A stretch of 64,000 nt of DNA from Caldinitratiruptor microaerophilus. GTDB taxonomy: Bacteria; Bacillota; Sulfobacillia; Symbiobacteriales; ZC4RG38. The stretch covers positions 1,178,001 to 1,242,000 of the forward strand of contig NZ_AP025628.1 of assembly GCF_025999835.1 (NCBI RefSeq). Reading direction: 5' to 3'. The position numbers and the translations under genes are program-made. Below are positions 4,822-32,650 of the stretch, in pieces (the stretch's first letter is position 1; each line of letters begins with the position of its first letter). The notes under the pieces are model-generated. The model was not told where the DNA came from. It saw nothing but the letters and a program-made list of their open reading frames with translations, and made no database searches.

Positions 4822-6087
4822 TCACACCCGCCACGAGCGCAGATACTGCTCCTGTTCCGGGGTCAACCGGTCGATCTCGACGCCCAGGGCCCGGAGGCGC
4901 AGCTCGGCCACCCGCACGTCGATCTCCCGGGGCACCGGCACGACGTCCCTGGGCAGTTCGTGCCCGTGCCGGGCGATGTGGAGCTGGGCCAGGCACTGGA
5001 CGGCGAAGGAGAGGTCCATGATCTCGGCGGGGTGGCCGTCGGCGCCGGCCAGGTTCACCAGGCGCCCGTCGGCCAGGAGGTAGACCCGCCGCCCGTCCGG
5101 GAAGCGGTACTCGTCGACGTTCTTCCGCACGCGCACCGGCGGGCCGCAGAGGGCCTCCAGGTCGGGCTTGGCGACCTCCACGTCGAAGTGCCCGGCGTTG
5201 GCCAGGATGCAGCCGTCCTTGATCACCTCGAGGTGCTCGCGCCGCACCACCCCGCGGTTGCCGGTCACAGTGACGATGAAGTCGGCGATCGCGGCAGCCC
5301 GGCGCATCGGCATCACCTCGAAGCCGTCCATGAGCGCCTCGTTGGCGGCGATCGGGTCGACCTCGGTGACCACGACCCGGGCCCCGAGCCCCCGGGCCCG
5401 CATCGCCACGCCCTTGCCGCACCAGCCGTACCCGGCCACCACGGCGACCTTCCCGGCCACCGTGAGGTTCGTGTTGCGCATGATCCCGTCCCAGGTCGAC
5501 TGGCCGGTGCCGTAGCGGTTGTCGAAGAGGTACTTCATATAGGCGTTGTTGACGGCCAGCATCGGGAAGGCCAGGGTGCCTTCGGCCGCCATCGCCCGCA
5601 GGCGCTGCACGCCCGTCGTGGTCTCCTCCGACCCGCCCCGGATGTCCGGCAGGAGCTCCCGGTGGCGCGTGTGCAGGGCGGCCACGAGGTCGCCGCCGTC
5701 GTCGAGGATCTGGTCGGGCCGGGCGGCCAGCACCCGGTCGATGTGGGCCTCGTACTCCTCGGGCGTCGCGCCGTACCAGGCGTGCACCGTCACGCCCCGC
5801 TCGGCCAGGGCGGCGGCGACGTCGTCCTGGGTGGAGAGCGGGTTGGAGCCGGTGATGTGCACGTCGGCGCCCCCGGCGGCCAGGACCGTCGCCATGTAGG
5901 CCGTCTTGGCCTCCAGGTGCAGGCAGATGGCGATACGCTTCCCGGCGAAGGGGCGCGTGGCCTCGAACTCCTTGCGGACCTCGTTCAGCACCGGCATGTG
6001 CCGGGCCACCCAGTCGATCTTCCGGTGACCCTCCGGCGCCAGCCCCGGGTCCCGGAGGCTGGAAACCGCCACCTTCGATTCGGACAC
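4822..6087 (-). CDS. ahcY: Adenosylhomocysteinase
   Basis: Hydrolyses S-adenosylhomocysteine to adenosine and homocysteine, closing the methyl cycle. 421 residues, the length of the prokaryotic short form. Landmarks: HLEAKTAYM near residue 50, [31 protein letters not shown], the NAD-binding [17 protein letters not shown] near residue 218, and [11 protein letters not shown]. The frame stays open upstream into mtnP, but homology begins at [15 protein letters not shown], so the GTG at 6087 with a G-rich ribosome site (AGAGGGGGG) is chosen. It lies 26 bases after the mtnP stop. Confidence 0.95.
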
Positions 6088-6113
6088 GGGTGCGAGCCCC
6101 CCTCTTCCCCGTC

Positions 6114-6899
6114 TCACATCCGGATCCCCGGCGACGCGTGGGCGCAGCGGCACCCCCGCTCCTCCGGAAGGTTGTCGAGCGCGAGCATGGCCAGACGCCG
6201 CAGCCGCTCGGCATTCTGCGCCATGACCTCCAGGACCTCTTCGTGGGTCAGGGGCTGGGGCGAGATGCCGGCGGCGAAGTTCGTCACCATGGAGACGGTG
6301 CTGTAGCAGATCCCCGCCTCGTGGGCGAGCACGACCTCCGGCACGCCGGTCATTCCCACCACGTCGCCTCCGAGCCGCTGGTACGCCTTGATCTCGGCCG
6401 GCGTCTCGAACCGGGGCCCCTCGGTGCACACGTACGTGCCCTCGCGGTGAAAACCGAGGCCCAGCGTCTTCGCCGCCTCCGCCAGCACCCCCCGGAGTTC
6501 GGGGCAGTAGGGCTCGGTGAAGTCGACGTGCACCACCCCTTCCGGCCCGCCCTCGAAGAACGTCGACGGCCGGCCCTTCGTGAAGTCGAGGAACTGGTCG
6601 CAGAAGACGAAGTCGCCCGGGCGCATGTCGAGGTTCAGGGAGCCCACCGCTGTCGTGGCGATGATCCGCTCGACGCCCAGGCGCTTGAGGGCCCAGATGT
6701 TGGCCCGGTAGTTGATCCGGTGGGGCGGGACGGAGTGCTTCTCGCCGTGGCGCGCCAGGAAGGCGACCTCCTTTCCCCGGTACGTCCCCACCTTCACCCG
6801 GACGTCCCCGTACGGCGTCGACACCTGCTCCTCCCGCAGGCCGGTCAGGATGGCCGGGTCGTAGACCCCCGTACCGCCGATGAGCGCATACCGTACCAC
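6114..6899 (-). CDS. mtnP: S-methyl-5'-thioadenosine phosphorylase
   Basis: 261-residue nucleoside phosphorylase of the MTAP type, splitting methylthioadenosine with phosphate into adenine and methylthioribose-1-phosphate. Seen: IGGTGVYDP at the N-terminus (phosphate site), [51 protein letters not shown] and [17 protein letters not shown], where the final motif carries the purine-binding residues. First gene of the methyl-cycle cluster. The SAM decarboxylase that ultimately generates MTA is encoded 1.6 kb away. The C-terminal [11 protein letters not shown] extends slightly past the usual end. Confidence 0.93.
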
Positions 6900-24561: not shown

Positions 24562-24668
24562 CCCCTCTTATCTGCGGGAATTGGCACCTTCAGGGACAGC
24601 CTGGGGCGCTGCCCCTGGGTTGCCGGGCTTCATCGGGCCAGTCCCTCCACCTCTCTCGATAAGAGCCG
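24562..24668 (-). promoter_or_regulatory. SAM-I (S-box) riboswitch
   Basis: The minus strand carries the conserved S-box core in order: CTCTTATC, AGAGAGG, GGAGGGACTGGCCCGATGAA, GCCCGGCAACC, then AAGGTGCCAATTCC and GATAAGAG closing helix P1. P1 is formed by 24665-24658 with 24572-24565. It senses SAM and would switch off metX and the genes behind it (lysC, vanZ-like, thiW) through the terminator just downstream. Confidence 0.97.
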
Positions 24669-26457: not shown

Positions 26458-27939
26458 CTAGATGATGATGCAGATGAGCCCCCCGCTGCCCTCGTTGATG
26501 ATGCGGGTCAGGGTCTCCTGGAGCTTCTGCTGGGCATCCTCCGGCATGCGGTAGAGCTTGTTCTGCACGCCGTCGCGTACGAGCTCGTACAGCGACTTCC
26601 CGAAGATGTCGAAGTCCCAGAGCTTCTTCGGGTCGTCCTCGAACTTCTCCATCAAGTACTGGACCAGTTCCTCGCCCTGCTTCTCCGTGCCGATGATCGG
26701 CGTCACCTCCGTGTGGATGTCGGCGCGGATGAAGTGCAGGGACGGGGCGCTGGCGCGCAGCCTCACGCCGAAGCGGGAGCCCTGGCGCACGAGCTCGGGC
26801 TCGTCGAAGGTCATGTCGGAGAGCTGCGGCGGTACCATCCCGTAGCCCGTCTCGCGCACTTCGTGGAGCGCAACGGCGATCTTGTCGTACTCCTGTTTCG
26901 CCACCGCCCACTCCCGGAGCAGGCGTACCATGGTGTGCTTGCCCTCGAGCTTGACGCCCGCGATCTCCTCCAGAATCTGGTAGTAGAGGTCTTCCCGGGC
27001 CTCGAGCTCGACGACCGCCGTTCCCGTGCCCATGTCCATGGAGCGGAGCTGCGCCGTCTCCACGAACTCGTACGAAGCCAGACGCTCCACCGCCTGGTCC
27101 ACATCCCGAACCTTCGTGACAGCCTGCACCACCTCCGCCACGGCCGTCTCGAACTTCTCTCGCAGCCACTGACGGGAGTCCAGTTCCTCCACCCACCGCG
27201 GCAGGCGCACCTCCAGCTCGCGAACGGGGAACTCCAGCAGCAGCTGCTCGAGGACCATGTGGACGTCGTCCTCGGTGAGCTCCGACACGTCGGTGGGGAT
27301 GATGGGCGCACCGTACTTCTCCTCCAGCTCGCCGGCGAGATCGAGAGTCTCCTGGGCGTATGGCCGCGTGGTGTTGAGTACGACCACGAAGGGCTTGCCG
27401 AGTTCCTTCAGCTCGGCGACGACCCGCTCCTCCGCCTCGATGTACTTGCCCCGGGCGATGTCGGTGATGGTCCCGTCCGTGGTGACCACCACGCCGAGGG
27501 TGGCGTGCTCGGCGATCACCTTCCGGGTTCCGATCTCGGCCGCCTCGTGCAGCGGCACCTCGGCGTCGAACCAGGGCGTCAGCACCATGCGGGGCTGGCC
27601 CGTTTCGTCCAGGAAGCCGAGCGCCCCCTCCACGGGGTAGCCCACGACGTCGATGAGCCGCACGCGCACCGTGATGCCTTCGTGGGGCGTGAGCTCGACG
27701 GCCTCCTCCGGAATGAACTTCGGCTCCACCGTCATGATGGTCCGCCCGGCCCCGGACTGGGGCAACTCGTCGAGCATGCGCGTGCGGAGGAACTCGTCCT
27801 CGATCCGGGGCAGGACCAGCCGCTCCATGAACTTCCGGATGAAGGTGGACTTCCCTGTCCGGACCGGGCCGACGACCCCGATGTAGATGTCGCCCCCGGT
27901 CCGCTGGGCGATGTCCTGGAAGATGTTGAACTTCTCCAC
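26458..27939 (-). CDS. spoIVA: Stage IV sporulation protein A
   Basis: 493 residues, essentially the Bacillus length (492). SpoIVA is the ATPase that polymerises on the forespore surface as the coat basement layer. Seen: VEKFNIFQDIAQRTGGDIYI start, Walker A GPVRTGKST near residue 25, TIMTVEPKFIPEEAVEL, VRLIDVVGYPVEGALG, and the very conserved C-terminal end GSGGLICIII. GTG at 27939 is chosen over the slightly longer frame because family homology starts at EKFNIFQ and GAGGAGGGGG lies just upstream. A sigma-E-like promoter precedes it. It marks the genome as that of an endospore former. Confidence 0.97.
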   Translation of the reverse strand: MEKFNIFQDIAQRTGGDIYIGVVGPVRTGKSTFIRKFMERLVLPRIEDEFLRTRMLDELPQSGAGRTIMTVEPKFIPEEAVELTPHEGITVRVRLIDVVGYPVEGALGFLDETGQPRMVLTPWFDAEVPLHEAAEIGTRKVIAEHATLGVVVTTDGTITDIARGKYIEAEERVVAELKELGKPFVVVLNTTRPYAQETLDLAGELEEKYGAPIIPTDVSELTEDDVHMVLEQLLLEFPVRELEVRLPRWVEELDSRQWLREKFETAVAEVVQAVTKVRDVDQAVERLASYEFVETAQLRSMDMGTGTAVVELEAREDLYYQILEEIAGVKLEGKHTMVRLLREWAVAKQEYDKIAVALHEVRETGYGMVPPQLSDMTFDEPELVRQGSRFGVRLRASAPSLHFIRADIHTEVTPIIGTEKQGEELVQYLMEKFEDDPKKLWDFDIFGKSLYELVRDGVQNKLYRMPEDAQQKLQETLTRIINEGSGGLICIII

Positions 27940-28038
27940 GCTCCCCCTCCTCACCGGCGGCTATGCGAGGGATCGGTCCCGGTCGCCGGCCGCCGCGCGG
28001 CGGACCTTCCGGCGCCGCGCCAACGGATTCCGATGCGA

Positions 28039-28067
28039 TTCGTATGAGGGGTGACGGCTCATTATGC
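28039..28067 (-). promoter_or_regulatory. Sigma-E-type promoter of spoIVA
   Basis: GCATAAT (28067-28061) and CATACGAA (28046-28039) with a 14-base spacer on the minus strand, 100 bases upstream of spoIVA. The -10 differs from CATACAAT at two bases. spoIVA is sigma-E dependent in Bacillus. Confidence 0.65.
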
Positions 28068-28656
28068 GGTGGCCGCTTTCAGGAACTCGCCCCCCGCTGC
28101 CGTCCGACCGGGGGGCCAGGGGCTCCGGGCCGGTCGCGCGCGGCTCCGGCACCTCCACGGCCGGAACAGCCGCATGCGGGCGCGCGTACCGTTCCGTCAA
28201 GGCACGGGCGAACACGAACGACCCCGCCGGACAGACCCGGCGGGGCCGTGCGGGAGGCGGATCGCGAACATGACTGCGGGGTTATTGCCTTTTCCCTCTC
28301 CCGGGCCGTGCAGCCGCATCGCTTCTTCGATGGGCCCGGGCGCAACAACCCCGCAGCAGGGAACCAGGGAGCCTGGCCTGATGGCCCCGGTCAGCCGGCT
28401 GTCCGGGCGCTGACTTGACAGCCTCGCTGCCTTGGGGTCGGACCTCCACTGCCATCCGGGTCGGCACCCGCCGGCGAGTGGATCGCCTGATCCTGTGGAG
28501 CATCCGCCCGTCCCTGGCTCACCTCGCAGCCTCATCGTACAGCCGGCGGCCGCGTGCCGCAACCACCGAACGTGCCATGCGGCGTAACGAAAAAGGCCAT
28601 GTCGATCCTAGACTGGTTGTTGCGGCAATTCCGCCCATGCCGCGGTACCCGCTCTC
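28068..28656. other. Gene-poor interval between spoIVA and rbsK
   Basis: No convincing gene. Open frames here lack conserved motifs and good ribosome sites. The interval holds two stable hairpins: one at 28222-28245 (CCCCGCCGG with CCGGCGGGG) and a larger structured element at 28274-28356 described separately. Confidence 0.6.
28274..28356 (-). ncRNA. Unclassified structured RNA element
   Basis: An 83-base nested fold. The outer 15-bp stem joins 28274-28288 with 28342-28356, an inner 8-bp stem joins 28300-28307 (CCCGGGCC) with 28333-28340, and an apical 5-bp stem (CATCG/CGATG, 28317-28321 with 28328-28332) has a six-base loop. On the minus strand the only imperfect outer pair is a G-U wobble; on the plus strand it would be an A-C mismatch, which favours minus-strand RNA. 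No known family was recognised. It could also be a long terminator of rbsK or a MITE/REP-like palindrome. Confidence 0.4.
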
Positions 28657-29574
28657 CTACCGCCCCTCAAGAAACCGCAGGAACTCCTCCCTGTGGGGGA
28701 GCGACGGCTGCGCGCCGGGGCGGGTGACGGCCAGGGCGCCGGCCGTGCAGCCCCACTGCACCGCCTCGTGCAGGTCGAGCCCCTGCGCCAGCGCCGCGGC
28801 CAGAGCGCCGGCGAAGGCGTCCCCGGCCGCGGTGGTGTCGACCACCTTAACGGGAGGCGAAGGCACATGGGCGGTCCCCTCCGGCCCGGCGAACAGCGCA
28901 CCCTCGGGCCCGAGCTTCACGATCGCCCGCCGGAAGCCCTGGCCCAGGAGTTCCTGGGCGGCGTCGGCGGCCTCCTTCCGCCCCCGGACCGTGATGCCCG
29001 TGAGCGCCTGTGCCTCCACCTCGTTCGGGGTCACGAAGTCGACGAGCCGGATCAGGTGGGCGGGGAGCGGGCGCGCCGGAGCCGGATCGAGGACCACCAA
29101 CGCGCCCGCCTCCCTGGCCAGCTGAGCGGCCCGGATCACCGTCGCCATCGGGATCTCCAGCTGAAGCAGGATAACCCGGGCGGAGGAGAACAAGGGGCGC
29201 GCCTCCCCGACGGCCTCCGGCCCCATCGCCCCGTTGGCTCCGGGAACGGCGAGGATCGCGTTCTGACCGCCCGGGGCCACGATCACGACCGCAACCCCGG
29301 TGGACTGCCCGGCCACCGGGAGTACGCCGCGCACGTCGACTCCGGCGTCCCCCAGGCTCTTCCGCATTAGCTGGCCGAAGTCGTCCTCGCCCACGCGCCC
29401 CACCATCGCGGTCGAGACGCCCAGCCGCGCCGCAGCCACGGCCTGGTTGGCGCCCTTTCCGCCAGGCACGGTGTCCAGGCTCTGGGCCGAAATCGTCTCG
29501 CCCGAGTTCGGGAGGCGCGGGGCCCTCACCACCAGGTCGACGTTGAGGCTGCCCACGACCACGACGTCCGCCAT
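28657..29574 (-). CDS. rbsK: Ribokinase
   Basis: 305-residue PfkB-family kinase phosphorylating ribose. Seen: VVVGSLNVDLVVRAPRLPN at the start, the substrate motif PGGKGANQAVAAARLG near residue 40, NEVEAQALTG, and the ATP/anion-hole region VVDTTAAGDAFAGALAAAL with the catalytic Asp near 250 (usually GAGD, here AAGD). No ribose transporter is adjacent. Ribose could come from nucleoside salvage. Confidence 0.9.
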   Translation of the reverse strand: MADVVVVGSLNVDLVVRAPRLPNSGETISAQSLDTVPGGKGANQAVAAARLGVSTAMVGRVGEDDFGQLMRKSLGDAGVDVRGVLPVAGQSTGVAVVIVAPGGQNAILAVPGANGAMGPEAVGEARPLFSSARVILLQLEIPMATVIRAAQLAREAGALVVLDPAPARPLPAHLIRLVDFVTPNEVEAQALTGITVRGRKEAADAAQELLGQGFRRAIVKLGPEGALFAGPEGTAHVPSPPVKVVDTTAAGDAFAGALAAALAQGLDLHEAVQWGCTAGALAVTRPGAQPSLPHREEFLRFLEGR

Positions 29575-31175: not shown

Positions 31176-31255
31176 CACCGGTCCCCCAGCGGACGGGTCC
31201 GGCAGCCAGGGCTGGCTGGGCGGCGGTCCGGTCCGCGGCGCGGCCCGGCAAGACG

Positions 31256-31284
31256 GCGCGGCCGGCCACACAGGCCGGCCGCGC
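31256..31284 (-). terminator. Terminator-like hairpin after gabT copy 1
   Basis: GCGCGGCCGGCC and GGCCGGCCGCGC form a perfect 12-bp stem with a five-base loop, 20 bases past the gabT stop. No T-run. The repeat boundary (31254) lies at the foot of this hairpin. Confidence 0.6.
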
Positions 31285-31303
31285 GGAGCCCGGACCGCCG
31301 CCC

Positions 31304-32650
31304 TCAGCGCGTCCGCGACACGGAGGCGATCGCCTCCTCGAGGATGTCCAGGCCCTCGTCGAGCTGCTCGTCGGTGATCGCCAGGGGGGCCAGGAACCGG
31401 ATCACCTGGTTGTGGTGGCCGGCCTTCATGAGGATCAGGCCGTTCTCGTAGCACCGCTTGAAGATGGCCGCGGTCTCCTCCGTGGCCGGCTCCTTCGTCG
31501 CGCGGTCCTTCACCAGCTCGATGGCGGCCATGGCGCCGAGCCCCCGTACGTCACCCACCAGCTCGAAGCGCTCGTGCCAGTCCCGGAAGCGGGCCAGGAC
31601 GCGCTCGCCCACCGCCTGTGCCCGCTCCACGTACCGGTCGCGCTCCATCACCTCGATGACCTTGAGGGCGGCCGCGCAGGCGACGGGGTTGCCGCCGTAC
31701 GTACCGCCCAGGCCGCCGACCTGCGCGGCGTCCATGATCTCCGCCCGCCCGGTGACGGCGGAAATCGGCAGCCCGTCGCCCAGCGACTTGGCCATCGTCA
31801 CCAGGTCCGGGACCACGCCCGAGTGCTCGACGGCGAAGAAGCGGCCCGTGCGCCCGAAGCCGGTCTGGATCTCGTCCGCGATGAAGACGATGCCGTACTC
31901 GTCGCACAGCGCCCGGAGGCCGCGCAGGAACTCCGGCGGCTGGACCAGGAATCCGCCCTCGCCCTGCACCGGCTCGATGATCAGCGCGGCCACCTTGTCG
32001 GGGCCGATCTCGTCCTCGATCGCCCGGCGGACGTCTTCCAGGGCGTGGCGGGCAGTGGCGGCCGGATCGGCAAAGGGCGAGCGGTAGGGGTAGACGGCGG
32101 GGAGGCGGTAGATCTCCGGGGCGAAGGGCCCGAAGCCGTACTTGTACGTGGAGACCTTGGCCGTCAGGCTCATGCCGAGGAGCGTGCGGCCGTGGAAGGC
32201 GTGGGTGAAGGTGATCACCGCCGGGCGCCCGGTGTAGCGGCGGGCGAGCTTCACCGCGTTCTCCACGGCCTCGGCGCCGCTGTTGAAGAGAGCGGTCTTC
32301 TTGGGGAAGTCGCCCGGGGTGAGGCGGTTCAGCTCCTCGGCCAGTCGGACGTACGGCTCGTACATGGTGACGTGGAAGCAGGTGTGCAGGAAACGGTCCA
32401 CCTGCTCCTTGACCGCCGCGACCACCTCGGGGTGGTTCGCGCCCAGGTTCAGGACGCCGATGCCACCGGCGAAGTCGAGAAACACGTTTCCGTCGACATC
32501 CGTGAGCGTGGCGCCCCGGGTCTCGGCGGCGAAGATGGGGGCGACGTTGGCCACGCCCCGCGGAACCGCCGCCTCGCGCCGGCGCAGGAGCTCCTGGGAA
32601 CGCGGACCGGGGATGGGCGTGCGGATCTGCACCGTCCTGGACACACGCAT
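31304..32650 (-). CDS. gabT: 4-aminobutyrate aminotransferase-type class III aminotransferase, copy 1
   Basis: 448-residue PLP enzyme: ALFNSGAEAVENAVKLARRY, THAFHGRTLLGMSL, EPVQGEGGFLVQP, FIADEIQTGFGRTG and the PLP lysine in TMAKSLGDGLPISAV near residue 290. The motif set is that of GabT, which converts GABA (or similar omega-amino acids) with 2-oxoglutarate to semialdehyde and glutamate. The protein is identical by eye to copy 2 (59021-60367); all DNA differences inside the gene are silent. ATG at 32650 follows GGAGGAG. It has lost its native upstream operon and now lies behind the island's minus-strand genes. Confidence 0.9.
   Translation of the reverse strand: MRVSRTVQIRTPIPGPRSQELLRRREAAVPRGVANVAPIFAAETRGATLTDVDGNVFLDFAGGIGVLNLGANHPEVVAAVKEQVDRFLHTCFHVTMYEPYVRLAEELNRLTPGDFPKKTALFNSGAEAVENAVKLARRYTGRPAVITFTHAFHGRTLLGMSLTAKVSTYKYGFGPFAPEIYRLPAVYPYRSPFADPAATARHALEDVRRAIEDEIGPDKVAALIIEPVQGEGGFLVQPPEFLRGLRALCDEYGIVFIADEIQTGFGRTGRFFAVEHSGVVPDLVTMAKSLGDGLPISAVTGRAEIMDAAQVGGLGGTYGGNPVACAAALKVIEVMERDRYVERAQAVGERVLARFRDWHERFELVGDVRGLGAMAAIELVKDRATKEPATEETAAIFKRCYENGLILMKAGHHNQVIRFLAPLAITDEQLDEGLDILEEAIASVSRTR

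Follow-up and report, generated by a model that had tools for sequence, protein, structure and literature searches.

The window analysed here, a 64,000-nt stretch of the single-contig genome of Caldinitratiruptor microaerophilus (3,599,694 bases), contains a 702-bp gap (27955-28656, 71% G+C) flanked by the ribokinase gene rbsK and by spoIVA. Strain JCM16183 is a relative of Symbiobacterium with a G+C content of 71% and is grown at 60 C (PMC9933637). Among the titles and opening abstract lines returned by a literature search on Caldinitratiruptor, none concerns RNA in this organism. The gap was delimited with a simple codon-usage gene caller; no gene was detected in it, and none of its seven translated ORF stretches has a Pfam match at E <= 1. 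The start of spoIVA was set at GTG 27942 by comparison with relatives. Read along the minus strand, the locus runs from ribokinase through 300 nt to an 83-nt nested hairpin (the element), and from there through 21 nt to a compact hairpin (28252-28215) and the putative spoIVA promoter (Table 1). The preliminary description had placed the element in a gene-free region between rbsK and the spoIVA promoter, and both statements are supported: TIGR02152 and TIGR02836 confirm the flanking genes, and a putative sigma-E-like promoter lies on the spoIVA side. Elsewhere in the chromosome, a second ribokinase-like gene (G000:C1:3501235-3502152) is 56% identical to the one at 28657-29574. The murJ-like gene upstream of the window's SAM riboswitch scores 160.1 bits, below the cut-off of its family.

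Table 1. Features at and near the locus, in window coordinates.
Feature	Position	Strand	Evidence or structure	Placement
Ribokinase (rbsK)	28657..29574	minus	TIGR02152, 338.3 bits (cut-off 299.65)	upstream of element
Nested hairpin, 83 nt (element)	28274..28356	minus	outer, inner and apical stems of 15, 8 and 5 bp; 6-nt loop; 11 nt and 9 nt unpaired on 3' side	
Compact GC-rich hairpin	28215..28252	minus	arms of 16 nt with 88% complementarity; core of 9 perfect pairs at 28222-28245	21 nt downstream of element
Putative sigma-E-like promoter of spoIVA	28042..28067	minus	pattern GCATAAT ... CATAC	between element and spoIVA
spoIVA	26458..27942	minus	TIGR02836, 771.2 bits (cut-off 459.9)	downstream of element
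SAM riboswitch (S box)	24565-24665	minus	76.3 bits	downstream of murJ-like gene, same strand

As RNA, the element would fold well. In the outer stem (28274-28288 with 28342-28356), 14 Watson-Crick pairs are joined by one G-U on the minus strand; the 8-bp inner stem pairs CCCGGGCC with GGCCCGGG, and the 5-bp apical stem CAUCG with CGAUG under a loop of 6 nt. Rather than stacking end to end, the three stems are separated by an internal loop of 1/11 nt and a bulge of 9 nt, in each of which the longer strand is the 3' one when the minus strand is read. The predicted minimum free energy of the minus strand is -47.5 kcal/mol, a value that none of 200 shuffles reached (z -5.14); 2000 shuffles give a z of -4.84, and the best of them ties at -47.5. 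The plus strand is predicted at -42.4 kcal/mol (z -3.90). At 60 C the same minus fold is predicted, at -29.6 kcal/mol, and in a 162-nt context that includes the downstream hairpin the element keeps its fold and gains a 16th pair (28273/28357), while the context as a whole has a z of -2.52, with 3 of 200 shuffles as good. All three stems lie where the preliminary description had put them, and the one exception in the outer stem, at 28284/28346, is as described a G-U on the minus strand and an A.C on the plus strand; the 16th pair is likewise a G-U on the minus strand only. The further claim that this wobble favours the minus strand is a weak argument: since a single transition anywhere in a perfect palindrome leaves one strand with G-U and its complement with A-C, one such pair says little about which strand is transcribed and does not reveal it. 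A second inverted repeat in the gap (28555-28627) folds no better than its shuffles (z -0.62) and was rejected as a structure; it has the 9-mer GGTTGTTGC in common with the element.

The putative promoter of spoIVA was assigned by comparison with the sigma-E consensus. Upstream of spoIVA, which occurs once per genome in 8 genomes, relatives carry CTCATAG sites (L022, L023, L103 and L104) or CCATAG (L106). This comparison of upstream sequence and hairpins leaves out L101, L102 and L105, where spoIVA is on the minus strand and for which tblastn was used. By tblastn, a ribokinase lies near spoIVA in none of the seven relatives, within an available flank of up to 1.5 kb; the arrangement was seen only in C. 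microaerophilus. As the predicted promoter lies between the element and spoIVA, spoIVA mRNA started from it would not contain the element, and a riboswitch for spoIVA is not favoured. Between ribokinase and the element no promoter stands above expectation, the best score of 7.5 being equalled by 58% of 300 mononucleotide shuffles, and a promoter scan of 27900-28700 returned none. No U-tract follows the stem of the element on either strand by eye (the tails are TCATGTTCG on minus and CAGGGAACC on plus) and the terminator scan made no call there; the element is therefore not itself an intrinsic terminator. The compact hairpin downstream appears terminator-like: T accounts for 7 of 18 positions after its 28222-28245 core in the minus tail, against 2 of 18 in the plus tail. 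It was not called by the terminator scan, whose sole call (28693-28678, minus; 0.2 expected in shuffles) lies in the 3' end of the ribokinase gene and, if real, could halt transcription before the element.

How readily such a hairpin arises in this genome was assessed in 464 kb, made up of an even 400-kb sample and the 64-kb window, with no overlap by coordinates. Stems of this kind occur roughly as often as expected from Markov models: there are 10 inverted repeats with 15-bp arms, at most one mismatch and a 30-80-nt spacer, against 1-12, 4-9 and 5-10 in simulations of order 1, 3 and 5 (five runs each). The element is only mildly unusual relative to chance in its own genome, since 46 of 18,984 overlapping 83-nt windows with 60-72% G+C reach -47.5 kcal/mol or better on one strand or the other. 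It is also no outlier among intergenic hairpins. When up to three best-folding windows per gap were scored, 20 of 336 (from 136 stretches) had z <= -5, and none of the 25 lowest-z windows listed overlaps the element, whose exact frame was absent from the windows sampled. A folding z near -5 is thus no rarity among the intergenic stretches that fold best in a thermophile with 71% G+C. In the 136 real intergenic stretches, strong hairpins number 57, 23 and 12 at -42, -45 and -47 kcal/mol, compared with 26, 3 and 2 and with 30, 7 and 3 in two shuffled sets; the counts refer to windows of at most 72% G+C, with a step size that skipped the exact frame of the element. The intergenic set comes from the same simple codon-usage caller, so that gaps of up to 8 kb remain in which genes were missed, and 48 of 184 gaps (<83 or >1000 nt) were dropped before counting. 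Given the excess of real over shuffled, a sizeable share of these hairpins probably serve some function, presumably that of 3' ends, and as a class they seem to be partly functional, presumably as terminators.

It is quite possible, on these counts, that the element is an imperfect palindrome formed by chance in GC-rich intergenic DNA and has no function. The frequency of comparable repeats, of GC-matched windows that fold as well and of intergenic windows with equally low z fits this reading, as does the lack of convincing relatives in the order, class and phylum samples described below. Against it, the outer, inner and apical stems together give a z of about -5, most of the comparable repeats listed are richer in G+C than its outer stem, and strong hairpins are commoner in real than in shuffled intergenic stretches. 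The window holds another long, very GC-rich palindrome at 31217-31304 (15-bp arms around 58 nt, -73 to -75 kcal/mol). At L035:9350-11200, a stretch that includes a 45-nt hairpin (arms of 15 bp with one mismatch) is present twice, 1611 bases apart; the copies flank a frame that by eye resembles a transposase, and the whole may be a tandem insertion sequence.

A search of the 64-kb window with Rfam 15 at the gathering score returned the SAM riboswitch as its only match, and nothing on the element. At E up to 10 there were two matches far below gathering, neither overlapping 28274-28356 and both at chance level: M23 (18.8 bits, E 0.71) at 28544-28596 on the plus strand and isrL (8.3 bits, E 8.9) at 28222-28245 on the minus strand, in the compact hairpin. 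The preliminary description, which recognised no RNA family in the element, is upheld on this point by both the strict and the permissive search. Relatives were sought with a covariance model built from the one sequence given twice, with the structure supplied. In whole-genome model searches only a fraction of the first-look candidates was scored: no more than 150 per genome for the order and the own genome, at most 29 in the class rows listed and 11 in the phylum; searches above 40 genomes used stricter filters, and the order, class and phylum samples overlap. No convincing relative was found in the 7 other genomes of the order, where a single match scored 22.2 bits (L054, E 1.73), in 153 other genomes of the class sample at E <= 0.5, or in 397 other genomes of the phylum sample at E <= 0.05; C. 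microaerophilus is the sole member of its genus among the genomes searched.

Two better-scoring matches were judged to be chance. One, in the genome itself (L033:6380-6455, 27.5 bits, E 0.019), has the same stem order but lies opposite a minus-strand reading frame; the other, in the class sample (L062:1501-1580, 27.7 bits, E 0.118), lies within a 447-aa reading frame. By eye, this L033 frame (about 6014-6450, minus) resembles the N-terminal part of an Lhr-type helicase in an apparently broken gene. Weaker matches were those at L065 (22.1 bits, 46 nt), L103 (19.3 bits, 36 nt) and L059 (13.2 bits, 27 nt), and the 464-kb sample gave six further ones at E 2.3-8.3. In DNA searches, a 661-nt query against three genomes of the family gave short matches elsewhere only, the best of which (G002, 88% over 32 nt, E 8.4e-4) covers 28218-28249 and not the element; this part, the compact hairpin, has short look-alikes in the own genome as well. 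A 123-nt query against eight genomes of the order gave short matches only, the best at E 0.06 elsewhere in the own genome and, in a relative, at E 0.089. An 18-mer taken from the 3' loop matches 33 stretches from unrelated phyla, one of which has a model match at E <= 1 (0.13).

The reach of the method was gauged with a model built from the window's one SAM riboswitch, with an RNAalifold structure, which listed 6 matches in the own genome at E <= 0.01 and recovered SAM riboswitches in all 7 other genomes of the order. As the SAM riboswitch is a highly conserved RNA, this success indicates that such searches can work within the order but does not imply that a rapidly evolving RNA would be detected. 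Weak matches can also slip through: the 27.5-bit chance match at L033, reported by a direct search, was missed by the own-genome model search. As far as these searches reach, the conservation expected of the structured RNA proposed in the preliminary description is absent, there are no compensatory changes to test, and that proposal is left unsupported.

A discrete minus-strand sRNA of about 80-140 nt that is specific to the species or genus and stops at the 28215-28252 hairpin is an unlikely account. It would be consistent with the stable, compact minus fold that is predicted unchanged at 60 C, with the two wobbles that pair on the minus strand only and with the terminator-like hairpin 21 nt downstream, but no promoter exceeds expectation, and no convincing homologue appeared in the order, class and phylum samples even though the SAM control succeeded in 7 of 7 other order genomes. 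Should the element prove to be an sRNA, it would be a candidate in a little-studied genus.

Many genomic copies would have pointed to a REP/MITE palindrome; one copy was found. A 221-nt query of the own genome returned one full match, the rest being short with E >= 0.1, and the covariance model gave one match at E <= 10 among the 150 first-look candidates, out of 283, that were scored. A REP/MITE repeat was rejected on this ground. An integron attC site was rejected as well: by eye the outer arms read GTT...AAC, the reverse of the RYYYAAC ... GTTRRRY arrangement of such sites. The element might instead be the remnant of a mobile element: at a rearranged junction, a MITE-like insertion that is unique or has since been lost would account for the arms as its terminal inverted repeats. 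Its 15-bp terminal inverted repeat around 53 nt and a gene order seen at this junction in this genome only would suit such an origin. The single copy speaks against it, and so do the lack of any match of the 701-nt gap in plasmids or phages (blastn, E <= 1e-5) and the lack of a target-site duplication, by eye, in the flanks ...CATGA and CAGGG.... The outer-stem DNA pattern has no match in a genome contig collection and, slightly shortened, none in viral contigs; the viral result is a further point against this origin, and both collections may omit the own genome. We regard this origin as improbable. Least probable of all is a new sRNA confined to Caldinitratiruptor, made from the minus strand, ending at 28215-28252 and perhaps acting around sporulation next to spoIVA.

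Our tentative preference, held at somewhat less than even confidence, is for a lineage-specific intergenic hairpin without detectable conservation, possibly a passive 3'-end structure of ribokinase RNA. Minus-strand transcription, if there is any, would place the element in the 3' untranslated region of ribokinase, just before the terminator-like hairpin. If it acts at all, it would do so passively, through pausing or protection from 3' exonucleases; that the DNA is transcribed, which transcript carries the element and whether it has any effect are matters that we infer. The geometry is consistent with this: the element lies 300 nt past the ribokinase stop and 21 nt before a hairpin whose tail is T-richer on the minus strand, and no better-than-shuffled promoter intervenes between ribokinase and the element. 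Strong hairpins are also commoner in real than in shuffled intergenic stretches (12 versus 2 and 3 at <= -47 kcal/mol), and none of the 7 relatives shares the ribokinase-spoIVA neighbourhood within the flank available. Against a 3'-region hairpin of ribokinase RNA stand the missing U-tract at the element, long asymmetric 3' loops that are unusual for a plain terminator, a downstream hairpin uncalled by the terminator scan and the earlier position of the site that was called. Most economically, then, the element is either such a 3'-region hairpin or a neutral palindrome, a discrete sRNA being possible but unsupported. No finding so far identifies it as a functional RNA gene, and on present evidence its significance is small: it joins the similarly strong hairpins that are common in the genome of this thermophile with 71% G+C.

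Among known systems, REP/MITE palindromes resemble the element in being imperfect terminal inverted repeats in an intergenic gap, but the element was found in one genomic copy only. Orphan structured sRNAs and riboswitch candidates share with it a compact fold that includes an unpaired, purine-rich stretch, with a terminator-like hairpin downstream; unlike them, it has no homologues found (and so no covariation) and no promoter signal. From intrinsic terminators and 3'-UTR hairpins it differs in that its stem is not immediately followed by a U-tract, its internal loops are large and asymmetric, and a separate compact hairpin comes after it, whereas in its position downstream of a gene and its strong GC-rich stem it is like them.
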